A stretch of DNA of 64,000 bases, from positions 4,154,001 to 4,218,000 of the forward strand of contig NZ_JAFBCN010000001.1 of NCBI RefSeq assembly GCF_016907755.1, in the 5' to 3' direction. Positions 1,204 to 12,123 of the stretch are shown here, one piece after another. Numbering within the stretch: the stretch's first letter is position 1; each line of letters opens with the position of its first letter. Both the position numbers and the translations under genes were made by a program. The DNA is from Cellulosimicrobium cellulans (GTDB lineage: Bacteria; Actinomycetota; Actinomycetes; Actinomycetales; Cellulomonadaceae). The notes below the pieces were generated by a model. The model saw only the letters and a program-made list of their open reading frames with translations. It was not told where the DNA came from and searched no databases.

Positions 1204-1382
1204 GGCGTCCTCACTGGTCGACCTCTGCCGGACAACGACTCATTTGTCAGGAGTCCGAACTACTGGCTCTCCCCGATCATAGGCACCCCGGGCCCGTCCA
1301 CGGAACCCGATCCGACCCACCAGGGCCGAAGGTCACCCGCGCCGTGTCCGCACGGAACCGCGAGCCGGGTGACAATAGGGAC

Positions 1383-2015
1383 ATGAGTGGCCCGGTCCAG
1401 CCGTACCCCCTGCACGGAAGCATCGAAGCCGAGGACGCGAAGGAGATCCTCCGCAAGGCCATCCGCACCAACCGCCAGGCGCGGTCCGAGCGGCTCCGCA
1501 AGGAAGCGGCCGCCGCCATCGCCGACGTCGTCGCGACCATCCCCGAGGTCGCGACCGCCACGTGCGTCGCGACCTACGCCGCCCGCCCCGCGGAGCCCGG
1601 CACCGCGGAGATGCTCGAACGCCTCTCCGCGCGCGGCGTACGCGTCCTGCTCCCGGTGCTCGGCGCCGGCCTGCAGCGCGACTGGGCCGTGTACGACGGC
1701 CCGGCCGACCTCCAGGTCCGCGCCCCCGGCCGACCGCCCGAACCCGGCACGCCGCCGCTCGGCGCCGAGGCGATCGCCCAGGCCGACGTCGTCGTCGCCC
1801 CCGCGCTCGCCGTCGACTCGCGCGGCGTCCGGCTCGGCCAGGGCGGCGGCTGGTACGACCGCGCCCTCGAGCACCTGAGCCCCGGGACCAAGGTCGTCGC
1901 CGTCGTCTTCCCCGAGGAGGTCTACGACGCCTCCGACCGCCCGCTCCCGGTCGAGTCCCACGACAAGACCGTCGACGCCGTCGCGACCCCCCTCGGCTGG
2001 CGCTGGCTCCCGTAG
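1383..2015 (+). CDS. 5-formyltetrahydrofolate cyclo-ligase
   Basis: ATP-dependent conversion of 5-formyl-THF to 5,10-methenyl-THF in cytosolic one-carbon metabolism. The 210-residue product has the family's basic N-terminal helix (KEILRKAIRTNRQARS) and the C-terminal phosphate/ATP-binding signature RLGQGGGWYDRAL near residue 153, which matches the G-x-GGG-x-YDR pattern. Length is normal for the family. A longer reading exists upstream, but ATG 1383 follows GACAAT (1371-1376) by 6 nt, which suggests a leaderless transcript, and conservation starts here. Divergent from the sugar nucleotidyltransferase fusion, with 179 bp between them. Pairs functionally with the folA-thyA locus at 17-18.6 kb. 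Confidence 0.92.
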   Translation: MSGPVQPYPLHGSIEAEDAKEILRKAIRTNRQARSERLRKEAAAAIADVVATIPEVATATCVATYAARPAEPGTAEMLERLSARGVRVLLPVLGAGLQRDWAVYDGPADLQVRAPGRPPEPGTPPLGAEAIAQADVVVAPALAVDSRGVRLGQGGGWYDRALEHLSPGTKVVAVVFPEEVYDASDRPLPVESHDKTVDAVATPLGWRWLP

Positions 2016-2555: not shown

Positions 2556-5219
2556 CTACGGGACGAGGGTGAGCTCGTCCTGGCTGGCGTCGGCGACCGC
2601 CTGCGTGGAGAACGGCCAGTCGTAGGTCTCGCCGCGAGCCCAGGTCTTGAGCTGGTCGGAGTAGTGCGTGGACGCGGGGTGGCCGGAGGTACCGGTGACG
2701 GTGACCCAGGTGGAGCGGTCGAGGTCGTCGAGGTCGACGACCATCCGCATCGACGGGCCTGCCGTGACGTCGAACGACCCGGAGGCCGCGTCCCACGCGG
2801 TCGCGTTGACGATCGAGGAGCCACCGGGCATGCCGACGGGGTCGGGGTTGACCCAGTTGCGGACGGGGCCGGGGATGGACTCGCCGCCGAGGATCGGGTG
2901 CTCGAGCGCGAGCACGTGAAGCTTGCCCCAGGCCCAGTCGGAGGGCTGCTTGCTCTGCTCGACGGTCAGGTCGAGGCGGGCCGAGACGAGCGCCTGGGTG
3001 AGGACCTCGTCACGCGTCTCGACGACGCTGACGGTCTGGCGGTCGTCCCAGAACGGGTCGGTCGGGTTCTCGAGGAGGTTCTGCACGACGGCGAGCCAGC
3101 GGCTCCCGCCGTTCGGCAGCGCCGACTCGGGCAGGTCGTCCCAGAAGGTGAGCTGGAGCAGGTTGCGCCAGACGGCGGCGAAGTAGGCGGCCGCGGCGGA
3201 GTCGGTGTCGGTCCGGTAGTCCCAGTCCGCGAGGAGCGCCTGCCCCTCGGCGGCGAAGCTGTCGTCGATCTCCTGGTCGAGGAGGGGCTGTACCAGCACC
3301 TCGGCGTAGGGGCTGCGGTCGTCGGTCTGGATCTCGTTCATCGTGTCGACGTCGACGGGTCGTCCGGCGGAGATCTCGGCCTCGAGGAGCTGGCGGATGC
3401 GCTGCGAACGGTAGCCGTAGTCCCAGTCGGTGGTGAGGAACGGCGCGACGCCGGTGGGCAGGACCGCCTGGTTGGCGGCCACGATGAACCCCTCGGCCGG
3501 GTCGACGACGCGCGGCATCTGCTCGCTCGGGACGTAGCCCTGCCAGTCGTAGCGCTCGTCGGAGCCGTCGCGCGGCCACGTGCCGTCGGAGGGCACCTCG
3601 GCGTCGGGCACCGCCTGGCGGACGGGGATCTTGCCGGGCGCCTGGTAGCCGATGTGACCGTCCGCCGTCGCGAAGACGATGTTCTGCGCGGGCACCTCGA
3701 AGAGCGCCGCGGCGGCCTGCATGTCGTCGGCGTCCTGGGCGAGGTTGAACGCGAAGACCGCGTCGGCGGTACGGCCCGGCTCGAGCGCGGTCCACTGGAG
3801 GGAGACGGCGTACTCGCCCAGGCGGGTGTCGAGGGCGGGGGTGTCGACGGCCGTCTCGGTCGCGGGGATCGCCTCGGACACGATCGGCCCGTGCACGGTC
3901 GAGCGGATCTCGAGGTCCACGTCCTCGCCGCCGGCGACGTGCAGCGTCTCGGTCCGGGTCTCGAGCGGCACCCACTCGTCGCCGCGCAGGTAGGTGTCGT
4001 CGCGCACGCGCTCGACGAAGAAGTCGGTGACGTCGGCGCCCATGTTCGTCAGGCCCCACGCGAGCTGCGCGTTGTGGCCGATGATGACGCCGGGGAACCC
4101 GGCGAACGAGAAGCCCGCGACGTCGAACGCGCACTGCGGCCCGACCTCGTTGCAGTGCAGCCCGACCTGCGCCCAGATCCCAGGGGCCCCGAGTGCGAGG
4201 TGCGGGTCGTTGGCGAGGATCGGCTTGCCGCTGGCGGTGTGGTCGCCGGAGACGACCCACGAGTTGGAGCCTGTGCCCTCGCCGCGCCCGATGAGCACGG
4301 GGACGGCGTCGAGCGCGCGGTCGGCGGCCTCGAGGGCGCTCCGGAGGTGGTCCGAGCCGTACTCGGCGCGGGCCTCGGGGCCGAGCTCGAGCGCGACCTG
4401 CTGGGGGTTGTCGAGCTCGCCGGGGTCGAGGATCGGCGCGTTGACGTCGGACGGGTAGGCGGGGAACAGCGCGGCGACGCGCCCGGTGTCCTGGAGGGTG
4501 CTGTACGACAGCGCGCGCTCGAGCTCGTCGTCGTAGTTGCCGCGCAGGTCCCACGCCATCGCCTTGAGCCAGGCGAGCGAGTCGACGGGGTCCCAGGGCT
4601 CGGGCTCCGCGACGTCGACCTGGAGGCCGAGCACGGTGTACTCGATCGCGATCTCGGACGGGCTGCGGTTCTCGAGGTACGCGTTGACGCCCTCGGCGTA
4701 GGCCTGGAGGTACGCCTTGGTCTCGGGCGAGACGACGTCCCACTCCTCCTCGGCGACCTGCCGCCAGCCGAACGTCCGCGTCACGGTGTCGGCGGCGATG
4801 GCGTCGGGGTTGTCGCCCACGAGCTCCGCGAGCCGGCCCGCGGTGACGTGCCGGCGGTAGTCCATCTCGAAGAAGCGGTCCTGCGCCTGGACGTAGCCCT
4901 GGGCACGGAACAGGTCCTCGGGGGTGTCCGCGTAGATCTGCGGCACGCCCTGGGCGTCGCGCAGCACCGTGACCTGGCCCTCGAGCCCGGGGACCTCGAT
5001 CTGGCCGGAGGTCTGCGGCAACGGTCGGCGCACGGTGACGACCACGAACGCGGCACCCGCGACGAGCGCGAGGACGAGCAGCACGGCCACACCGATCAGG
5101 ACGCGCCGACGGCCGGACCGACGGCGGCGGGGCGGAGCCGTGGTCTCGACCGGGGTCGCGGGGTCGGCACCGGGGACGGCGTCACCGGCGGGGGCCTCGG
5201 TGGGTTCGTGCGCAGACAC
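2556..5219 (-). CDS. Penicillin acylase (Ntn-hydrolase) family protein, membrane anchored
   Basis: 887 residues. A cytoplasmic basic Pro/Thr-rich head is followed by one membrane segment (VLIGVAVLLVLALVAGAAF, residues ~40-60), so the catalytic part should sit outside the membrane. The predicted self-cleavage site and N-terminal nucleophile is Ser318 in GTGSNSWVVSG, the classic penicillin acylase GSN-x-W motif. It is followed by PILANDPHLAL and FAGFPGVIIGHN, both typical of the family. Members cleave amides such as beta-lactam side chains or acyl-homoserine lactones; the substrate here cannot be read from sequence. GTG start; TAGTCT sits 7 nt upstream (5227-5232), suggesting a leaderless message. 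Divergent from the CIRCE/FmdB unit. Confidence 0.9.
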   Translation of the reverse strand: MSAHEPTEAPAGDAVPGADPATPVETTAPPRRRRSGRRRVLIGVAVLLVLALVAGAAFVVVTVRRPLPQTSGQIEVPGLEGQVTVLRDAQGVPQIYADTPEDLFRAQGYVQAQDRFFEMDYRRHVTAGRLAELVGDNPDAIAADTVTRTFGWRQVAEEEWDVVSPETKAYLQAYAEGVNAYLENRSPSEIAIEYTVLGLQVDVAEPEPWDPVDSLAWLKAMAWDLRGNYDDELERALSYSTLQDTGRVAALFPAYPSDVNAPILDPGELDNPQQVALELGPEARAEYGSDHLRSALEAADRALDAVPVLIGRGEGTGSNSWVVSGDHTASGKPILANDPHLALGAPGIWAQVGLHCNEVGPQCAFDVAGFSFAGFPGVIIGHNAQLAWGLTNMGADVTDFFVERVRDDTYLRGDEWVPLETRTETLHVAGGEDVDLEIRSTVHGPIVSEAIPATETAVDTPALDTRLGEYAVSLQWTALEPGRTADAVFAFNLAQDADDMQAAAALFEVPAQNIVFATADGHIGYQAPGKIPVRQAVPDAEVPSDGTWPRDGSDERYDWQGYVPSEQMPRVVDPAEGFIVAANQAVLPTGVAPFLTTDWDYGYRSQRIRQLLEAEISAGRPVDVDTMNEIQTDDRSPYAEVLVQPLLDQEIDDSFAAEGQALLADWDYRTDTDSAAAAYFAAVWRNLLQLTFWDDLPESALPNGGSRWLAVVQNLLENPTDPFWDDRQTVSVVETRDEVLTQALVSARLDLTVEQSKQPSDWAWGKLHVLALEHPILGGESIPGPVRNWVNPDPVGMPGGSSIVNATAWDAASGSFDVTAGPSMRMVVDLDDLDRSTWVTVTGTSGHPASTHYSDQLKTWARGETYDWPFSTQAVADASQDELTLVP

Positions 5220-5226
5220 GGATGCG

Positions 5227-5232
5227 AGACTA
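5227..5232 (-). promoter_or_regulatory. -10 element TAGTCT, leaderless start of the acylase gene
   Basis: TAGTCT on the minus strand ends 7 nt before the GTG at 5219, which places the transcription start at or next to the start codon. Confidence 0.5.
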
Positions 5233-5260: not shown

Positions 5261-5292
5261 TATGATTAGCACTCGGAAGTTTCGAGTGCCAG
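5261..5292 (+). promoter_or_regulatory. CIRCE-like HrcA operator overlapping a -10 box
   Basis: TTAGCACTC (5266-5274), a 9-nt spacer, then GAGTGCCAG (5284-5292). The HrcA operator CIRCE is TTAGCACTC-N9-GAGTGCTAA, so 16 of 18 arm positions match with the exact spacer length. A good -10 hexamer, TATGAT, occupies 5261-5266 and overlaps the left arm, so a bound repressor would cover the promoter. The next gene is the FmdB-type gene at 5384, with a ~110-nt leader. No hrcA, groES or groEL lies in the window. Confidence 0.75.
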
Positions 5293-5383
5293 GCGGTGTT
5301 GACACCGACGACCCGGCCGAGACCGACCCGATCCCGACCCGCCGGTGGCCGCCCGACGGCCGTCTCGTGAACGAGGAGAACCC

Positions 5384-5689
5384 GTGCCCACCTACGCGTA
5401 CACGTGCACCGCCTGCGGTCACGCCTTCGACATCCACCAGTCGTTCAGCGACGACGCCCTCACGGTCTGCCCCGAGTGCTCGGGCCGTCTGCGCAAGGTG
5501 TTCTCCTCTGTCGGCGTGACGTTCAAGGGCTCGGGCTTCTACCGCACGGACTCGCGCTCGGGCGGGAAGTCGTCGACGGCACCTGCCGCCTCGAAGCCCG
5601 CCTCCTCCTCTGCGACGTCCGGCGCGAGCAGCACGTCCGGGGGCGCGAGCAGCACCTCGTCCTCGTCCGGAAGCTCGACCGCCTCCTGA
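5384..5689 (+). CDS. FmdB-family zinc-ribbon protein
   Basis: 101 residues. The N-terminal zinc ribbon has two cysteine pairs, CTACGH and CPEC (residues ~7-30), followed by the family's KVFSSVGVTFKGSGFYRTD block. The C-terminal 40 residues are a Ser/Ala/Gly-rich tail. The family is named after a putative formamidase regulator, but its molecular role is unsettled. GTG 5384 is preferred over an upstream in-frame codon because GAGGAG lies 6-7 nt before it and the conserved VPTYAYTC begins there. It is downstream of the CIRCE-like element, which suggests heat-shock control. The FmdB/SAF/MscL order that follows is, from memory, common in actinobacteria. Confidence 0.88.
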   Translation: MPTYAYTCTACGHAFDIHQSFSDDALTVCPECSGRLRKVFSSVGVTFKGSGFYRTDSRSGGKSSTAPAASKPASSSATSGASSTSGGASSTSSSSGSSTAS

Positions 5690-5846: not shown

Positions 5847-6575
5847 ATGCTCCGCTCCCCCCGCTCGCCGGATCCCCGTCCGCGCCCTGACCGCTCGCCC
5901 GCGCGACGGCGGCTGCTGCGCGGGTTGTGGTGGCGGTCCCGCTTCGTCGTGGCCGCGCTCTGCTGCGGGGTCGCGGCCTCCGTGGTCGTCGGGGCGCTCC
6001 GCCCTCCCCCGCCGCCGACCGCACCGGCCGTCGTCACCACGCGCGAGGTGCCGGCGGGCGCCGTGCTGGCGGCGGCGGACCTCCGCGTGGACCACGTGTC
6101 CGCCGAGCTCGTCCCGGCCGGTTCGGCGGCACGGCCCGACGACGTGCTCGGGCGCCGCGCGACCGTCGCCCTGCCTGCGGGCACCCTGCTGCAGGACGCG
6201 CTCGTCGCCGGCGGCGAGCTCGCCGCCGCGGCTCCCCCGGGCACGGTCGTCGCACCCGTCCGGCTCGATCCCGGTGTCGCGGCCCTCCTCGGCCCGGGCG
6301 ACCGCGTCGACCTCCTCGCCGCCGGTGACCAGGCGCTCACGACGGCGCTCACCGACGTGCCGGGCGACGGCCAGGACCCGGTCGCCGCCGACCCCTACCT
6401 CGCCCGCGCTGCCGTCGTCGTGCCGGCACCCGAACCCGACGGCGGGGGCGGGCTGCTCGGCACGGGCGGGTCGGGCACGGACGCCGTGACGCTCGTCGCC
6501 GTCCGGCCCGAGGAGGCGGTCCGGCTCGCCGCCGTGAGCGGGCAGACGAGCGTCACGGCCGTCCTCGTGCCCTGA
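5847..6575 (+). CDS. SAF-domain protein, CpaB/RcpC-like
   Basis: 242 residues. Basic Pro/Arg-rich N-terminus, one membrane segment (FVVAALCCGVAASVVVGAL, ~residues 32-52), then an SAF domain beginning TTREVPAGAVLAAADLRVDHVSAELVP. This is the CpaB/RcpC arrangement seen in Flp/tad pilus assembly. No other tad genes (cpaF, tadB/C, flp) occur in the window, so a pilus role is not supported by context. The stand-alone form next to FmdB and mscL may have an envelope role. Probably leaderless (see -10 at 5834). Confidence 0.75.
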   Translation: MLRSPRSPDPRPRPDRSPARRRLLRGLWWRSRFVVAALCCGVAASVVVGALRPPPPPTAPAVVTTREVPAGAVLAAADLRVDHVSAELVPAGSAARPDDVLGRRATVALPAGTLLQDALVAGGELAAAAPPGTVVAPVRLDPGVAALLGPGDRVDLLAAGDQALTTALTDVPGDGQDPVAADPYLARAAVVVPAPEPDGGGGLLGTGGSGTDAVTLVAVRPEEAVRLAAVSGQTSVTAVLVP

Positions 6576-6734
6576 CGGGCGAGGTGGCCGGCGCGCCGAC
6601 GGGTGAACCGGACGCCGGTGCCCGACCCGCCGGGCCAGGCCGTTGCCCGTCGGCACCCGCGTTGGGAGGATCGCGTGCGCACCTGTCGTGGCCCCGCCGC
6701 CACGCGGACCACCGACCTGAGAGGGAAGCAGCAC

Positions 6735-7205
6735 ATGAAGGGCGTGTTCCAGGGATTCAAGGAGTTCGTGCTCCGAGGCAACGCGATCGACCTGGCGGTC
6801 GGCGTCGTCATCGGGGCGGCGTTCGCCTCGCTCGTCGACGCGATCGTCACCTACCTGATCAACCCGATCATCGGCGCCATCTTTGGCAAGCCGGACATCT
6901 CGAACCTGTGGGACATCACGCTGCGGCCGGCCCACGACGGGATCGAGGCATCGGTCCTCTCCGTCGGCGGCATCCTCAACGCGATCCTGCAGTTCCTCAT
7001 CATCGCGATCGCGCTCTACTTCGTCATCGTCCTCCCGATGAACAAGCTCGCCGAGCGTCGCAAGCAGGACGTCGAGCCCGAGCCCGAGGCACCGGCGGAG
7101 GACGTGCGCGTCCTCCAGGAGATCCGCGACCTCCTCGCCGCCCAGGCGGCCAGCGGTCCCGGCGGCGCGGCACCGGGCGGCCCCACGCCGCCGCGCGGCT
7201 TCTGA
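6735..7205 (+). CDS. mscL: Large-conductance mechanosensitive channel MscL
   Basis: 156 residues. N-terminal amphipathic helix (MKGVFQGFKEFVLRGN), TM1 (AIDLAVGVVIGAAFASLVDAI) with the conserved glycine-rich pore face, a periplasmic loop and TM2 (ILQFLIIAIALYFVIVLPMN), then a charged C-terminal helix and a Gly/Pro-rich tail. Forms a homopentamer in the cytoplasmic membrane that opens under hypo-osmotic tension. ATG 6735 is chosen because homology starts there; GAGGGAAG lies about 8 nt upstream. The upstream in-frame extension has no conserved sequence. Confidence 0.96.
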   Translation: MKGVFQGFKEFVLRGNAIDLAVGVVIGAAFASLVDAIVTYLINPIIGAIFGKPDISNLWDITLRPAHDGIEASVLSVGGILNAILQFLIIAIALYFVIVLPMNKLAERRKQDVEPEPEAPAEDVRVLQEIRDLLAAQAASGPGGAAPGGPTPPRGF

Positions 7206-7989: not shown

Positions 7990-10900
7990 TCAGAGGTCGT
8001 CGTCGCCGTGCTGCTCGTCGTCGTCGATCACCGGCACGACGACGATCCTGTCGCCCCCTCCGGTCTGCGCGACGCCCCCGGTCTCCGGGAGCCGCTCGTC
8101 GCGCACCGCCTGCACGACCCTCCGGATGCGCTCGGCCTCCTTGGCGGGGTCGAGGAACGCGGCGGCGGACCACACCTGCGCGACGGTCCACCCGATGCGC
8201 TCGAGGCGTTCGGCCACCTGCCGGTCCCGCACGCGCACGCTGCGCTCGGCGACGTACGCGGCGTCGTCGGTGAGGACGGCGACGAGGAGCTCGCCGGGCA
8301 GGTCGGGGTGGCCGACGACGAGCGGGATGCGGTCGCCGTCGCCGATGCCGTAGTCGGTCTCGACGACGAGGCCCGCGCGCCAGAGGCGCTCGGCGAGGTC
8401 GAGCACGAGCCGGTCGGGGCTGCCGCCGAGGTCGACGCCGTTGCCGAGGGTCACCTGGTCGGCGGCGCCGCTGCGCTGCTCGGCGAGGTCGAGGACCTCG
8501 GCGAGCAGCCGGGCGCCGGCCCCGCGCAGCCGCTCCGGGTCGAGGTCGCCCGCGGTGAAGCACGACACGACGTGGAGGCGACGGCGGGTGGCGCCGACGG
8601 AGTCGAGCAGCATGGCCTCGGCCCCGGGGGTGTTGAGGATGCCGAACCGGTGGAGCACCCGCCCGTGCGGCGTGCGGCCGAACCCGACGGACAGGACGAT
8701 CGTGTCGCGCACGAGCCCGGCGACGCCGGACACGTCGGCGACGACGACGGGTTCGGCGCGGGAACCGGAGAAGAAGCTGGCGAGCGCGGGGTTCTGGCGC
8801 ACCTCGACGAGGAGGGCGTCGCGGATGCGGTCGGCGTGCAGGGGCGTGACGGTGACGATCGCGAGGGACTCGTCGGGCCGCGTGAGCGCGTGCTCGATGG
8901 CGACCTCCACGACGCGGTCCACCTCGGCCTGGGTGCTCTCGACCGCGCCGGACGTCGGGTCGGGCATGCCGGCGCCGTCGACGACGTCGAGCTGGACGAG
9001 GACCTCGGCGCGGGGCAGGGGCGCGGGGCGCAGCACGCCGTCGTAGCCGTGCTCGGCGAGGAAGGTCGTGACGTACGGGTCGCGCCGCGACCCGTCGGCG
9101 AGGAGCTCGACCGTGGGCAGCAGCTCGGCGAGCTCTCGCACGGTCTCGGTCGAGGCGGCGCGCGGGTCGCCGACCGCGACGACCTGCCGCCCGCGGGCGA
9201 GCGCGGAGAGCACGAGCTCGACGGGCGCGTGCTCGATCGCGTCGAGGACGACGAGGTCGACGGTGCGCGTCGCGGGGACGAGGTGCGGCACGAGGGTCGG
9301 CGTGGCGACGAGCACGGGGCGCAGGCGCCGCAGCACGGCGGGGTGCTTCTCGGCCGTCTCCCGAAGGCTCACGAGGCGGCCTTCGAGCAGCTCGGTGAAC
9401 AGGTCCTCGGCCTCGTCCCGGTGCTCGCGCATCGCGGTCCCGAGGTGGTCGCGGACCGCCGCGCGGACGGGCGCGGCCAGCGACGCGACGTGCGTGCGGT
9501 CGAGGTCGCGGAACCGGCGCGCGAGCGCGTCGAGGCCGGCGCCGTCCTGACCGGCCAGGGCCTGGTCCTGCGCGAGCACCTGCTCGAACACGGAGCTCCA
9601 CCATGCGAGCTCCAGCTCGGGGCCGACGAAGTCGGGCTCGACGCGGCGCACGGCGAGGTCGGCGAGGAGCTCGCCGAGGCCGAGGTCGGTGAGCCGGCGC
9701 AGGATCGCGGTCCGCGCGGGGAGGGAGTCGAGGGACTCGGCGTCCTCGGCGAGCGCGTCGAGGCGCGTCGCGAGCGCGTCGAGCGGGGCGTCGAGGAGGT
9801 CCCCGCCCCCGGGGGTGCCGTCGAGCGCGGGCTCGAGCTCCTCCACGTCGATGCGCACGGCCTCGTGCGTGTCCTCGATCGCGGACAGCCCCTCGGGCAG
9901 CACGGGCCAGCCGCCGCGCGGGCACTGCTCCTGCCAGACCGCGCGCTGCGCCTGCACCTCGACGAGCGCGGCGTGCAGGTCGGGCACGCGGACGCCGGGC
10001 CGGACCATGTCGCGCGCCTGGCGGTGCAGCCGTCGGCGGGCGAACCAGCCCATCTCGATGCCGCGCTCCGCGCGCCACTGCTTGGTCGCGGTCGCCTCGA
10101 CCATGTCCTGCGCGGTGCGCTCGAAGATGAGGGGCTGGAACACGTCGAGCGTGCCGCGCATGCCGCCGAGCATGGTGAGCTGGTCGCCCCACTGGCGCAG
10201 CGTCGTCGCGGGCGTCAGCCCGGTGCGCTGGGCGACCTGGTCGACCTGCGCGCGCAGCTGCGGGAGCGTGTGCGTGCGCAGGCGCTCGACGCGCACGAGC
10301 GCGTCGTGGGCCTCCTGCGGCGTGGTGAGGGCGGCGCCGTACCAGGGGGTCGACGTCGCGCGCGCGGTGAAGGCGCCGAGCAGCGCGGCCTCGCGCAGCT
10401 CCGCTGCGATCCGCTCCCGCTGCGGCCCGACGCCGAGCACGACCTCGGTCGTGAGGCGCACCCGGGTGTCGGGGGCCGGTCGCTCGGAGGTGAGCCGGGC
10501 GAGCGCCTGGAGCGCGTCGTAGGCGGACACGCCCCACGGGTCGCGCACGAGGTGCAGCGCCTCGATGTACCCGGCGAGCCGGGCGCGCGCGCCGAGCAGC
10601 GCGTCGCGCGTGCGCGCGAGGTCCTCGTCCTCGCCCGGCTCGGGCTCGGTGGCCATCGCGGACAGGAGTCGGTGCGACGCCGTCTCGCGCCACGTCGGCT
10701 CGGGGACGACGTCGAGCACGAGGCCGCCCAGGCCCAGCTCGTCGAGCCGCGCGAGGAGCGCGTCCGCGGCCCGGCGGTGGCCCGGGACGTACAGCACGTG
10801 GCGCCCGGACGCCGCGGCCTCGGCGACGACGGCCGCGAGCGTGCCCGCGACGTCGGACCCGGCCGGGGCGTCGACGAAGAGGTGCGAACCGCTCGCGAGC

Positions 10901-12123
10901 ACGTCGACGACGTGGCGCTGGGACGGGTCGAGGTCGCCGGCGCCGCGCTCGTGCACCGGGTCCGCGTCGCCGACGCGCGGCGCGGGCAGCTCGGCACGCA
11001 GCGCGACGGCCGAGCGCTCGTCCCCGGCCAGCGCGGCGACGACCTCGTGCCGCTCGAGCGCCGGCGCGAGCTCGTCGAGGTCGTCGACGAGGACCTGCCC
11101 GGGGTGCACGAACGTGCCGACGAGGACGCGGTGGGTCAGGTCGAAGTCGTCGAGCACGGCCTGGCCGAGCGCGGCGATGCGACGGGTCGCGTCGCCGGGG
11201 TCGAAGCCCGCGCCGGTGAACGTGGAGCGCGCGAGCGTCACCGGGTCGAGGAGCGCGCCGTGCGCGCGCAGCGTGCGCGCGAGGAGCGGGTTGATCTCGG
11301 CCGTCGGCTCGAGGGTCAGCTCGTAGTCGGTCTCGCCGTCCCCGCGCGGGGTCACGGTCAGAGGACGCAGGAGCACGGGGGCGCGCACCGTCCGGGACGT
11401 CGGCTCCTGCTCGGTCTCGTCGACCTCGCCCCGGGGCTGACGGCCGGCTTCGGGGGCGTGCACGCCGTCGGACCCGTCCCGCTCGTCCGAGAGCGCGGGC
11501 TCGTCCTCCCTCGCGCCGTCACCGGGGCGGGTGCCGGATCCGGCCTCGCCGGGGCCCGCGACGTCGTCGTCCCCGCTCGGGACGACCGTCGCGGGGGCGC
11601 GGCCCGCGACCCGGGCGAGCACCGCGACGTCGTCCTCGGCCAGCGGCACCGAGAGGCTCTGGGTCCAGGTCGCGACCCCGATCGCCAGGTATGTGGGCGC
11701 GACGCCGTAGCGCTGGGCGTGCTCGGCGGCGCGGACCACGACGGCCCGTGCGCGGCGCCGCGCGGCGGGCAGCGACCCGCCCTCGCGGAACAGGTTCGAA
11801 AGCCGCGTCGGCCGCCCGGCGAAGAGCTGGGCGACGCCCGAGGGGTGGGCGGCCGTCAGGTCGACGACGGCGTCGCCGAGGAGCGAGACGTCGGCGAGCG
11901 ACGAGCCCCCGGCGAGCTCGACGAGGCCCGCGCGCCACCGCGTGACGGCCTCGTCGACGAGGTCCGCCGTCGTGGGCTCGGGGACGAGCACGGGGCGGGA
12001 CGCTGTCACGCCGTCGTCCGTCGCGGCGTCGGGCTGGTCGGTCCCACCGGGAGCGGTCGCGGGCAGCCGAGCAGGATCGGCCACGCTCCGGGCGGCTGAG
12101 CTGGTGCGGGCTGCGGCATTCAC
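7990..12123 (-). CDS. Large SF1 (DNA2/NAM7-like) helicase-related protein with degenerate ATPase and nuclease motifs
   Basis: 1377 residues. The centre (residues ~400-1150) has the layout of large DUF4011-type SF1 helicases: LDPSQRHVVDVLASG before motif I and VDLVVLDAIEHAP at motif II. The C-terminal ~110 residues resemble the MTES_1575 restriction-endonuclease-like domain (RLVLDLAERLWRAGLVVETDYG ... VRDRQVAERLERIGW). Key residues are missing: motif I reads DAPAGSDVAGT with no GKT lysine, the DE of motif II is absent, and the D/E-x-K nuclease positions are IPLVV and VAVLTDD. An inactive or repurposed DNA/RNA-binding scaffold is the best reading. GTG start; TAGCGT 6 nt upstream (leaderless). 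Confidence 0.7.
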   Translation of the reverse strand: MNAAARTSSAARSVADPARLPATAPGGTDQPDAATDDGVTASRPVLVPEPTTADLVDEAVTRWRAGLVELAGGSSLADVSLLGDAVVDLTAAHPSGVAQLFAGRPTRLSNLFREGGSLPAARRRARAVVVRAAEHAQRYGVAPTYLAIGVATWTQSLSVPLAEDDVAVLARVAGRAPATVVPSGDDDVAGPGEAGSGTRPGDGAREDEPALSDERDGSDGVHAPEAGRQPRGEVDETEQEPTSRTVRAPVLLRPLTVTPRGDGETDYELTLEPTAEINPLLARTLRAHGALLDPVTLARSTFTGAGFDPGDATRRIAALGQAVLDDFDLTHRVLVGTFVHPGQVLVDDLDELAPALERHEVVAALAGDERSAVALRAELPAPRVGDADPVHERGAGDLDPSQRHVVDVLASGSHLFVDAPAGSDVAGTLAAVVAEAAASGRHVLYVPGHRRAADALLARLDELGLGGLVLDVVPEPTWRETASHRLLSAMATEPEPGEDEDLARTRDALLGARARLAGYIEALHLVRDPWGVSAYDALQALARLTSERPAPDTRVRLTTEVVLGVGPQRERIAAELREAALLGAFTARATSTPWYGAALTTPQEAHDALVRVERLRTHTLPQLRAQVDQVAQRTGLTPATTLRQWGDQLTMLGGMRGTLDVFQPLIFERTAQDMVEATATKQWRAERGIEMGWFARRRLHRQARDMVRPGVRVPDLHAALVEVQAQRAVWQEQCPRGGWPVLPEGLSAIEDTHEAVRIDVEELEPALDGTPGGGDLLDAPLDALATRLDALAEDAESLDSLPARTAILRRLTDLGLGELLADLAVRRVEPDFVGPELELAWWSSVFEQVLAQDQALAGQDGAGLDALARRFRDLDRTHVASLAAPVRAAVRDHLGTAMREHRDEAEDLFTELLEGRLVSLRETAEKHPAVLRRLRPVLVATPTLVPHLVPATRTVDLVVLDAIEHAPVELVLSALARGRQVVAVGDPRAASTETVRELAELLPTVELLADGSRRDPYVTTFLAEHGYDGVLRPAPLPRAEVLVQLDVVDGAGMPDPTSGAVESTQAEVDRVVEVAIEHALTRPDESLAIVTVTPLHADRIRDALLVEVRQNPALASFFSGSRAEPVVVADVSGVAGLVRDTIVLSVGFGRTPHGRVLHRFGILNTPGAEAMLLDSVGATRRRLHVVSCFTAGDLDPERLRGAGARLLAEVLDLAEQRSGAADQVTLGNGVDLGGSPDRLVLDLAERLWRAGLVVETDYGIGDGDRIPLVVGHPDLPGELLVAVLTDDAAYVAERSVRVRDRQVAERLERIGWTVAQVWSAAAFLDPAKEAERIRRVVQAVRDERLPETGGVAQTGGGDRIVVVPVIDDDEQHGDDDL

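Follow-up and report, generated by a model that had tools for sequence, protein, structure and literature searches.

The heat-shock repressor HrcA controls groES, groEL and hrcA operons through the inverted repeat CIRCE. A 2020 paper on M. tuberculosis reported that HrcA represses the gene Rv0991c (ruc) and that SigH induces it, and described the zinc-binding product, Ruc, as a chaperone that is activated by oxidation and promotes Hsp70 folding (PMC7448276). That paper also describes overlapping SigH and HrcA sites at Rv0991c, names cysteines 8, 11, 29 and 32 in the primers for this gene, and likens Ruc to Hsp33 on account of zinc-binding cysteines and activation by oxidation, adding that the two sequences are dissimilar (PMC7448276). 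A second source gives the M. tuberculosis HrcA units as groEL2, groES-groEL1, rv0991c-rv0990c and hrcA-dnaJ2, so that Rv0991c is listed beside groES, groEL2 and hrcA (PMC8557902). Rv0991c also appears in a table of SigH-dependent expression in M. tuberculosis, and the same paper states the SigH consensus as GGAAYR-N17-18-GTT (PMC4803200). The accessible part of a study on SigH of C. glutamicum leaves CIRCE unmentioned (PMC3489674).

We analysed a 64,000-nt stretch (hereafter, the window) of a Cellulosimicrobium cellulans genome of 4.79 Mb in one contig, in which a predicted CIRCE operator precedes a gene for an FmdB-type zinc-ribbon protein (Table 1). The open reading frame of this gene is listed from a GTG at 5345; however, its domain matches start with the first residue of the frame 5384-5686, and we therefore place the start at the GTG at 5384. 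The protein scored 60.2 bits against Pfam Zn_ribbon_8 (cut-off 34.4) and 72.5 bits against TIGR02605, the FmdB family zinc ribbon protein (cut-off 31.3). Its zinc ribbon has the form CxxC-N17-CxxC, with cysteines at positions 8, 11, 29 and 32, and is followed by a serine-rich C-terminal tail (Ser/Gly/Thr/Ala-rich in the translation) that is probably disordered. The closest named matches come from Cellulosimicrobium cellulans, C. composti and another Cellulosimicrobium (97-98% identity over 60 residues). At a Mycobacterium locus (L136), the order reads galU, 5-formyltetrahydrofolate cyclo-ligase, FmdB, SAF-domain protein and MscL, the labels galU, cyclo-ligase and MscL having been read from translations. 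The window presents cyclo-ligase, amidase (on the reverse strand), FmdB, SAF and MscL. Between the two loci, identity amounts to 75% over 60 residues for the FmdB proteins and to 34% (77/228 aligned positions) for the SAF proteins; the latter would correspond to Rv0990c in M. tuberculosis. Gene order, the 75% identity and the four cysteines, numbered as in the Rv0991c primers, therefore identify the gene by sequence as orthologous to ruc of mycobacteria (M. tuberculosis Rv0991c), and we refer to it as ruc.

Table 1. Positions of the features discussed, numbered from the first base of the window.
Feature	Position	Strand	Basis or remark
5-formyltetrahydrofolate cyclo-ligase gene	1344..2015	+	start codon uncertain; on the other side of ruc
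Penicillin-amidase-family gene	2556..5219	-	divergent from ruc; between the cyclo-ligase gene and ruc
-10 box TATGAT, housekeeping-type promoter (predicted)	5261..5266	+	fused to the first base of CIRCE
CIRCE operator (predicted HrcA binding site)	5266..5292	+	TTAGCACTC-N9-GAGTGCCAG
SigH/SigR-type promoter (predicted)	5275..5300	+	GGAAG 5275-5279 in the CIRCE loop, N18, GTT 5298-5300
FmdB-type zinc-ribbon gene, ortholog of mycobacterial ruc	5384..5689	+	Zn_ribbon_8, TIGR02605, orthology
SAF-domain (CpaB-like) gene	5847..6575	+	next in the conserved block after ruc
MscL gene	6735..7205	+	from the ATG inside the listed frame 6603-7205; neighbour of ruc at the Mycobacterium locus too

Elsewhere in the window, the reverse strand encodes a 1377-residue protein (7993-12123) with an MTES_1575 nuclease-like domain at its C-terminus. 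Its matches to the NCBIfam anti-phage proteins ProA (312.6 bits, cut-off 1500) and Hhe (148.2 bits, cut-off 2000) fall well under the cut-offs, so it may be related to these defence proteins in shortened form.

The operator reads TTAGCACTC GGAAGTTTC GAGTGCCAG, and the full stretch from the first base of the -10 box to its end (5261-5292) is TATGATTAGCACTCGGAAGTTTCGAGTGCCAG. Scored against the 9-9-9 inverted-repeat consensus TTAGCACTC-N9-GAGTGCTAA, it carries two mismatches, that is, 16/18 arm positions agree. It is the sole match with up to three mismatches in the window, and none of 100 dinucleotide shuffles contained any. A previous sequence-only reading had noted, within 5261-5383 and ahead of the FmdB gene, a 16/18 CIRCE-like palindrome overlapping TATGAT; both the description and its coordinates were right, the -10 box and the operator having T5266 in common. 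This palindrome is very probably a real site for HrcA, as predicted from its sequence and context.

The same reading had called for a search for HrcA and for all CIRCE sites, which uncovered an HrcA gene (188.9 bits, cut-off 22.2) and five sites with at most three mismatches across the whole genome, against none for the reversed pattern. These sites lie at groES (Cpn10, L001), groEL (Cpn60, L004, two in tandem), hrcA (L003) and ruc, the genes other than ruc having been assigned by Pfam scans, in which most of the ten frames around the other sites gave no match. The first genes thus correspond to those of the M. tuberculosis HrcA units, whereas the whole transcription units may differ between the two genomes. 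Indeed, no groEL was found in the ~1 kb behind groES (L001, 1528-3027), where a MerR-type gene and, on the opposite strand, a WhiB gene were identified instead; groES and groEL thus seem to be separate units here. The two CIRCE copies at groEL (L004, around 1501) are 35 bases apart, start to start, and similar close pairs occur in several of the genomes listed from the family set. In the 61 genomes of that set, HrcA was found in 60, and all 61 contain three to seven CIRCE sites with up to three mismatches, compared with zero to three for the reversed pattern.

Conservation of the operator upstream of ruc, which the sequence-only reading had set as a test of its proposal, extends over many lineages and is absent in others. 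We counted a site when CIRCE with no more than four mismatches lay within 400 bases upstream of the FmdB gene. The FmdB gene was found in 58 of the 61 family genomes, and 55 of these 58 loci carry the site, the remaining three having 8-9 mismatches. Among 80 named actinomycete loci, which are those listed from a larger number of relatives found and share some contigs with the family set (e.g., L016 and L072), it is present in 43, and the other 37 show 6-10 mismatches. Mononucleotide shuffles of the family and named loci reached four mismatches once in 2760 and never fewer. A class-level search located FmdB in 139 of 148 genomes; in a sample of 89 of these loci, made up of the best 29 (the window's own not counted) and a further 60 chosen manually for coverage of genera, the site occurs in 69, the rest having at least six mismatches, and none of 890 shuffles had four or fewer. 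Counted by taxon, 61 of the 73 genera and 32 of the 37 families in this sample have at least one examined locus with CIRCE.

Named loci with the operator include Cellulomonas, Promicromonospora, Nocardia, Rhodococcus, Gordonia, Mycobacterium, Pseudonocardia and Kineococcus, as well as all four Arthrobacter and six of the seven Nocardioides loci named to genus. It was not found at any of the examined loci of Microbacterium (nine), Leucobacter (three), Brevibacterium (two), Nesterenkonia (two) or Ornithinimicrobium (one). These counts imply that CIRCE at ruc either dates far back in the class or arose on many occasions, and that some lineages lost or never acquired it. Of the 37 named genomes without it, we tested 29 (omitting L075, L081, L083, L104, L111, L135, L138 and L141), and all 29 keep HrcA and three to five CIRCE sites elsewhere, with zero to two matches to the reversed pattern; control of ruc by HrcA is therefore not obligatory. 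When 93 loci were profiled column by column, conservation was evident in the CIRCE arms and the -10 box but not in the flanks, with partial conservation at two loop positions (G and A). The left arm reads TTAGCAGTC or TTGGCAGTC in 29 of the 69 class-level sites (e.g., L176, L184-L188 and L216), an interruption of the palindrome at a single base that is found repeatedly in related families, and the right arm contains GAGTGC in 68 of the 69. The open-licence literature yielded no report on the breadth of CIRCE at ruc beyond M. tuberculosis, nor any paper pairing CIRCE with FmdB.

A TANNNT hexamer ends on the first T of CIRCE in 81 of 94 non-redundant CIRCE loci, while each of nine other offsets scored zero or one. 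In the same register of the class sample, the full pattern occurs in 24 of 69 loci, which makes the box weaker there than in the first sample, and an A in second and a T in last position in 56 of 69, often as CATCAT or CACAAT. The hrcA promoter of the host genome shows the same fusion, TAGGAT-TGGCACTC. No recognizable -35 hexamer was seen 17 bases upstream of TATGAT. In this predicted promoter, the -10 box and the operator overlap, and occlusion by HrcA would be the simplest mechanism of control. Altogether, we consider it highly likely, on these sequence grounds, that HrcA controls this ruc ortholog.

The CIRCE loop of the window also contains GGAAG, the -35 part of a candidate SigH/SigR-type promoter. 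Compared with GGAAY-N18(-19)-GTT, the spacing fits, but the fifth base is G rather than the optimal C or T. The host genome encodes SigH (356.6 bits, cut-off 251.55) and, beside it, RsrA (83 bits, cut-off 62.5). We searched the 94 non-redundant CIRCE loci for GGAA[CTG]-Nn-GTT with n from 8 to 30 and obtained a peak at n=18 (21 loci), with 4 at n=19, 2 at n=13, 1 each at n=12 and n=16, and none at any other spacing; shuffled controls (300 runs) at n=18 averaged 0.29, with a maximum of 3. The class sample repeated the pattern, with 11 of 69 at n=18, one at n=19 and none at other spacings from 12 to 23 (300 shuffling runs at n=18: mean 0.20, maximum 2). Among loci without CIRCE, the N18 form was present in 5 of 40 and, at class level, in 1 of 20. 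The 21 matches belong to related loci of about eight genera and are not independent events: by our own grouping, five are from Cellulosimicrobium, four from Myceligenerans and a similar genus, three from one further genus, three from Nocardia, two each from Rhodococcus and Pseudonocardia, and one each from Gordonia and Nocardioides. Relative to the first base of CIRCE, they start at -30 (8), +9 (6), -24 (5), -29 (1) and -33 (1), and the 11 class-level matches at -24 (3), +9 (2), -30 (2), -26, -41, -47 and -48 (one each). Most thus begin at -30, -24 or +9 and overlap or abut CIRCE, whereas the three at -41, -47 and -48 lie well upstream of it. The window element is of the +9 kind, as are those of a Gordonia (L098) and of two class-level genomes of one genus (L164 and L169). 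Within Cellulosimicrobium, the element is kept in L007, L008, L065, L066 and L067 and absent in L012 (GGC for GTT) and in L016 (= L072) and L073 (no GGAA in the loop). We found no published report, in the open-licence literature, of a sigma element embedded in the CIRCE loop at ruc.

Two further observations concern promoter elements around CIRCE. A SigH -10 element at a fixed place downstream of CIRCE in all loci was considered and rejected, because the columns there are unconserved; the search in any register recovered the element in part of the loci. In the host genome, the CIRCE loop at groES (L001, 1501-1560) contains TTGACC, followed 17 bases later by TAGATT; the placing of -35 elements inside operator loops may thus be more widespread.

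The strongest challenge concerns this second promoter. HrcA could act at CIRCE while GGAAG-N18-GTT is there by chance and the housekeeping start alone matters, as would fit the absence of the element from three loci under the same genus name, its G in fifth position, and the many CIRCE-bearing ruc loci in which the N18 form was not found (73 of 94, and 58 of 69 at class level). Against this weigh the N18 peak, far over shuffles in two samples, the identical in-loop placement in the Gordonia locus and the two class-level genomes, and the reported SigH dependence of Rv0991c in M. tuberculosis (PMC4803200). We regard a chance element as a serious but lesser possibility, and a second, SigH/SigR-dependent start at ruc, as predicted from the sequence, as somewhat the better supported.

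A different objection addresses the protein. The table row of one source carries the database name 'putative regulatory protein, FmdB family protein' (PMC11022373), and names of this sort would make the product a regulator rather than a chaperone. However, its ortholog Rv0991c is reported to be an oxidation-activated chaperone promoting Hsp70 folding (PMC7448276), and CIRCE groups the FmdB-type gene with groES, groEL and hrcA, which leaves a regulatory role unlikely.

Less probable still is that the palindrome serves the divergent penicillin-amidase gene instead of ruc. It does lie only 46 bases from the amidase start codon, in an intergenic region common to both genes, but the -10 box fused to CIRCE faces ruc; a CIRCE-bearing Mycobacterium locus has no listed frame of amidase size in the 2.5 kb before ruc; and the site precedes ruc in the 61 of 73 genera counted above, a figure that refers to position relative to ruc alone. 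The direction of the box and the conserved placing of CIRCE ahead of ruc thus make this role very improbable. On the amidase side, TAGTCT at 5227-5232 on the reverse strand resembles a -10 box; lying 7 bases upstream of the start codon, it would give a divergent transcript with almost no leader. The corresponding forward-strand sequence GAGACTACC recurs in several relatives.

Finally, a non-regulatory chance repeat or terminator-like hairpin, which has the palindromic form in its favour and nothing more, can be practically dismissed in view of the shuffles, the reversed-pattern controls in this genome (0 vs 5) and in the 61 family genomes (0-3 vs 3-7), and the conservation of the site.

Control of ruc by HrcA, with a probable second start, suggests the following scheme, in which HrcA binding and both transcription starts are deduced from the sequence. 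In unstressed cells, HrcA on CIRCE would keep ruc off by covering the -10 box together with the start region, as it presumably represses groES, groEL and hrcA of the same genome. Upon heat shock, HrcA would leave the operator and housekeeping RNA polymerase could initiate at TATGAT. SigH/SigR, the thiol-stress sigma factor, would provide a second start through GGAAG-N18-GTT; since the -35 part of this element lies inside the CIRCE loop, HrcA should block that start too. With its four cysteines oxidised, Ruc would act as a holdase for unfolded proteins, an activity reported for the M. tuberculosis protein; by analogy, we infer chaperone activity in this species as well. The sequence-only reading had suggested that an FmdB gene in the HrcA regulon would link this poorly understood family to protein-folding stress. 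That link is sound but not new, because Rv0991c had already been reported in 2020 as HrcA-repressed and SigH-induced (PMC7448276).

Taken as a whole, we give even chances to a joint reading in which ruc belonged ancestrally to the HrcA regulon of Actinomycetes and left it in several lineages that keep HrcA, while a SigH/SigR start was placed repeatedly, at different registers, and is gated by HrcA release upon heat. If true, ruc would be governed by a two-input switch, heat and thiol stress, for a chaperone that itself requires oxidation, and the operator loop would double as a sigma -35 element in part of Cellulosimicrobium, a Gordonia and two other relatives. The presence of the site in 32 of 37 sampled actinomycete families suggests that FmdB, a poorly named family, belongs to the core HrcA regulon of most of them, and that the chaperone function described for Ruc in M. 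tuberculosis would reach far beyond that pathogen. The co-occurring SigH/SigR-type element offers a simple hypothesis for the integration of heat and thiol-oxidation signals, and lineages devoid of CIRCE at ruc constitute natural comparisons.

Set against the known systems, the locus most resembles M. tuberculosis ruc, with which it shares the zinc-ribbon cysteines, an alike neighbourhood (as judged from the other Mycobacterium locus, L136) and, as predicted here, HrcA control and a CIRCE that overlaps a candidate SigH-type site. It differs in belonging to another genus and family, in the penicillin-amidase gene inserted between the cyclo-ligase gene and ruc, and in a SigH-type -35 element inside the CIRCE loop, the mycobacterial promoter being known here by its published description. 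With the groES, groEL and hrcA systems it has in common the same inverted repeat and, in the case of hrcA of this genome, the same fusion of -10 box and CIRCE, but the gene under control is ruc and not a chaperonin or hrcA. As for the actinomycete SigH/SigR thiol-stress regulon, the spacing of GGAA[CTG]-N18-GTT equals that of GGAAYR-N17-GTT and the SigH and RsrA genes are present; unlike the promoters of that regulon, the window element is a prediction from sequence alone, with G in place of C or T as its fifth base.
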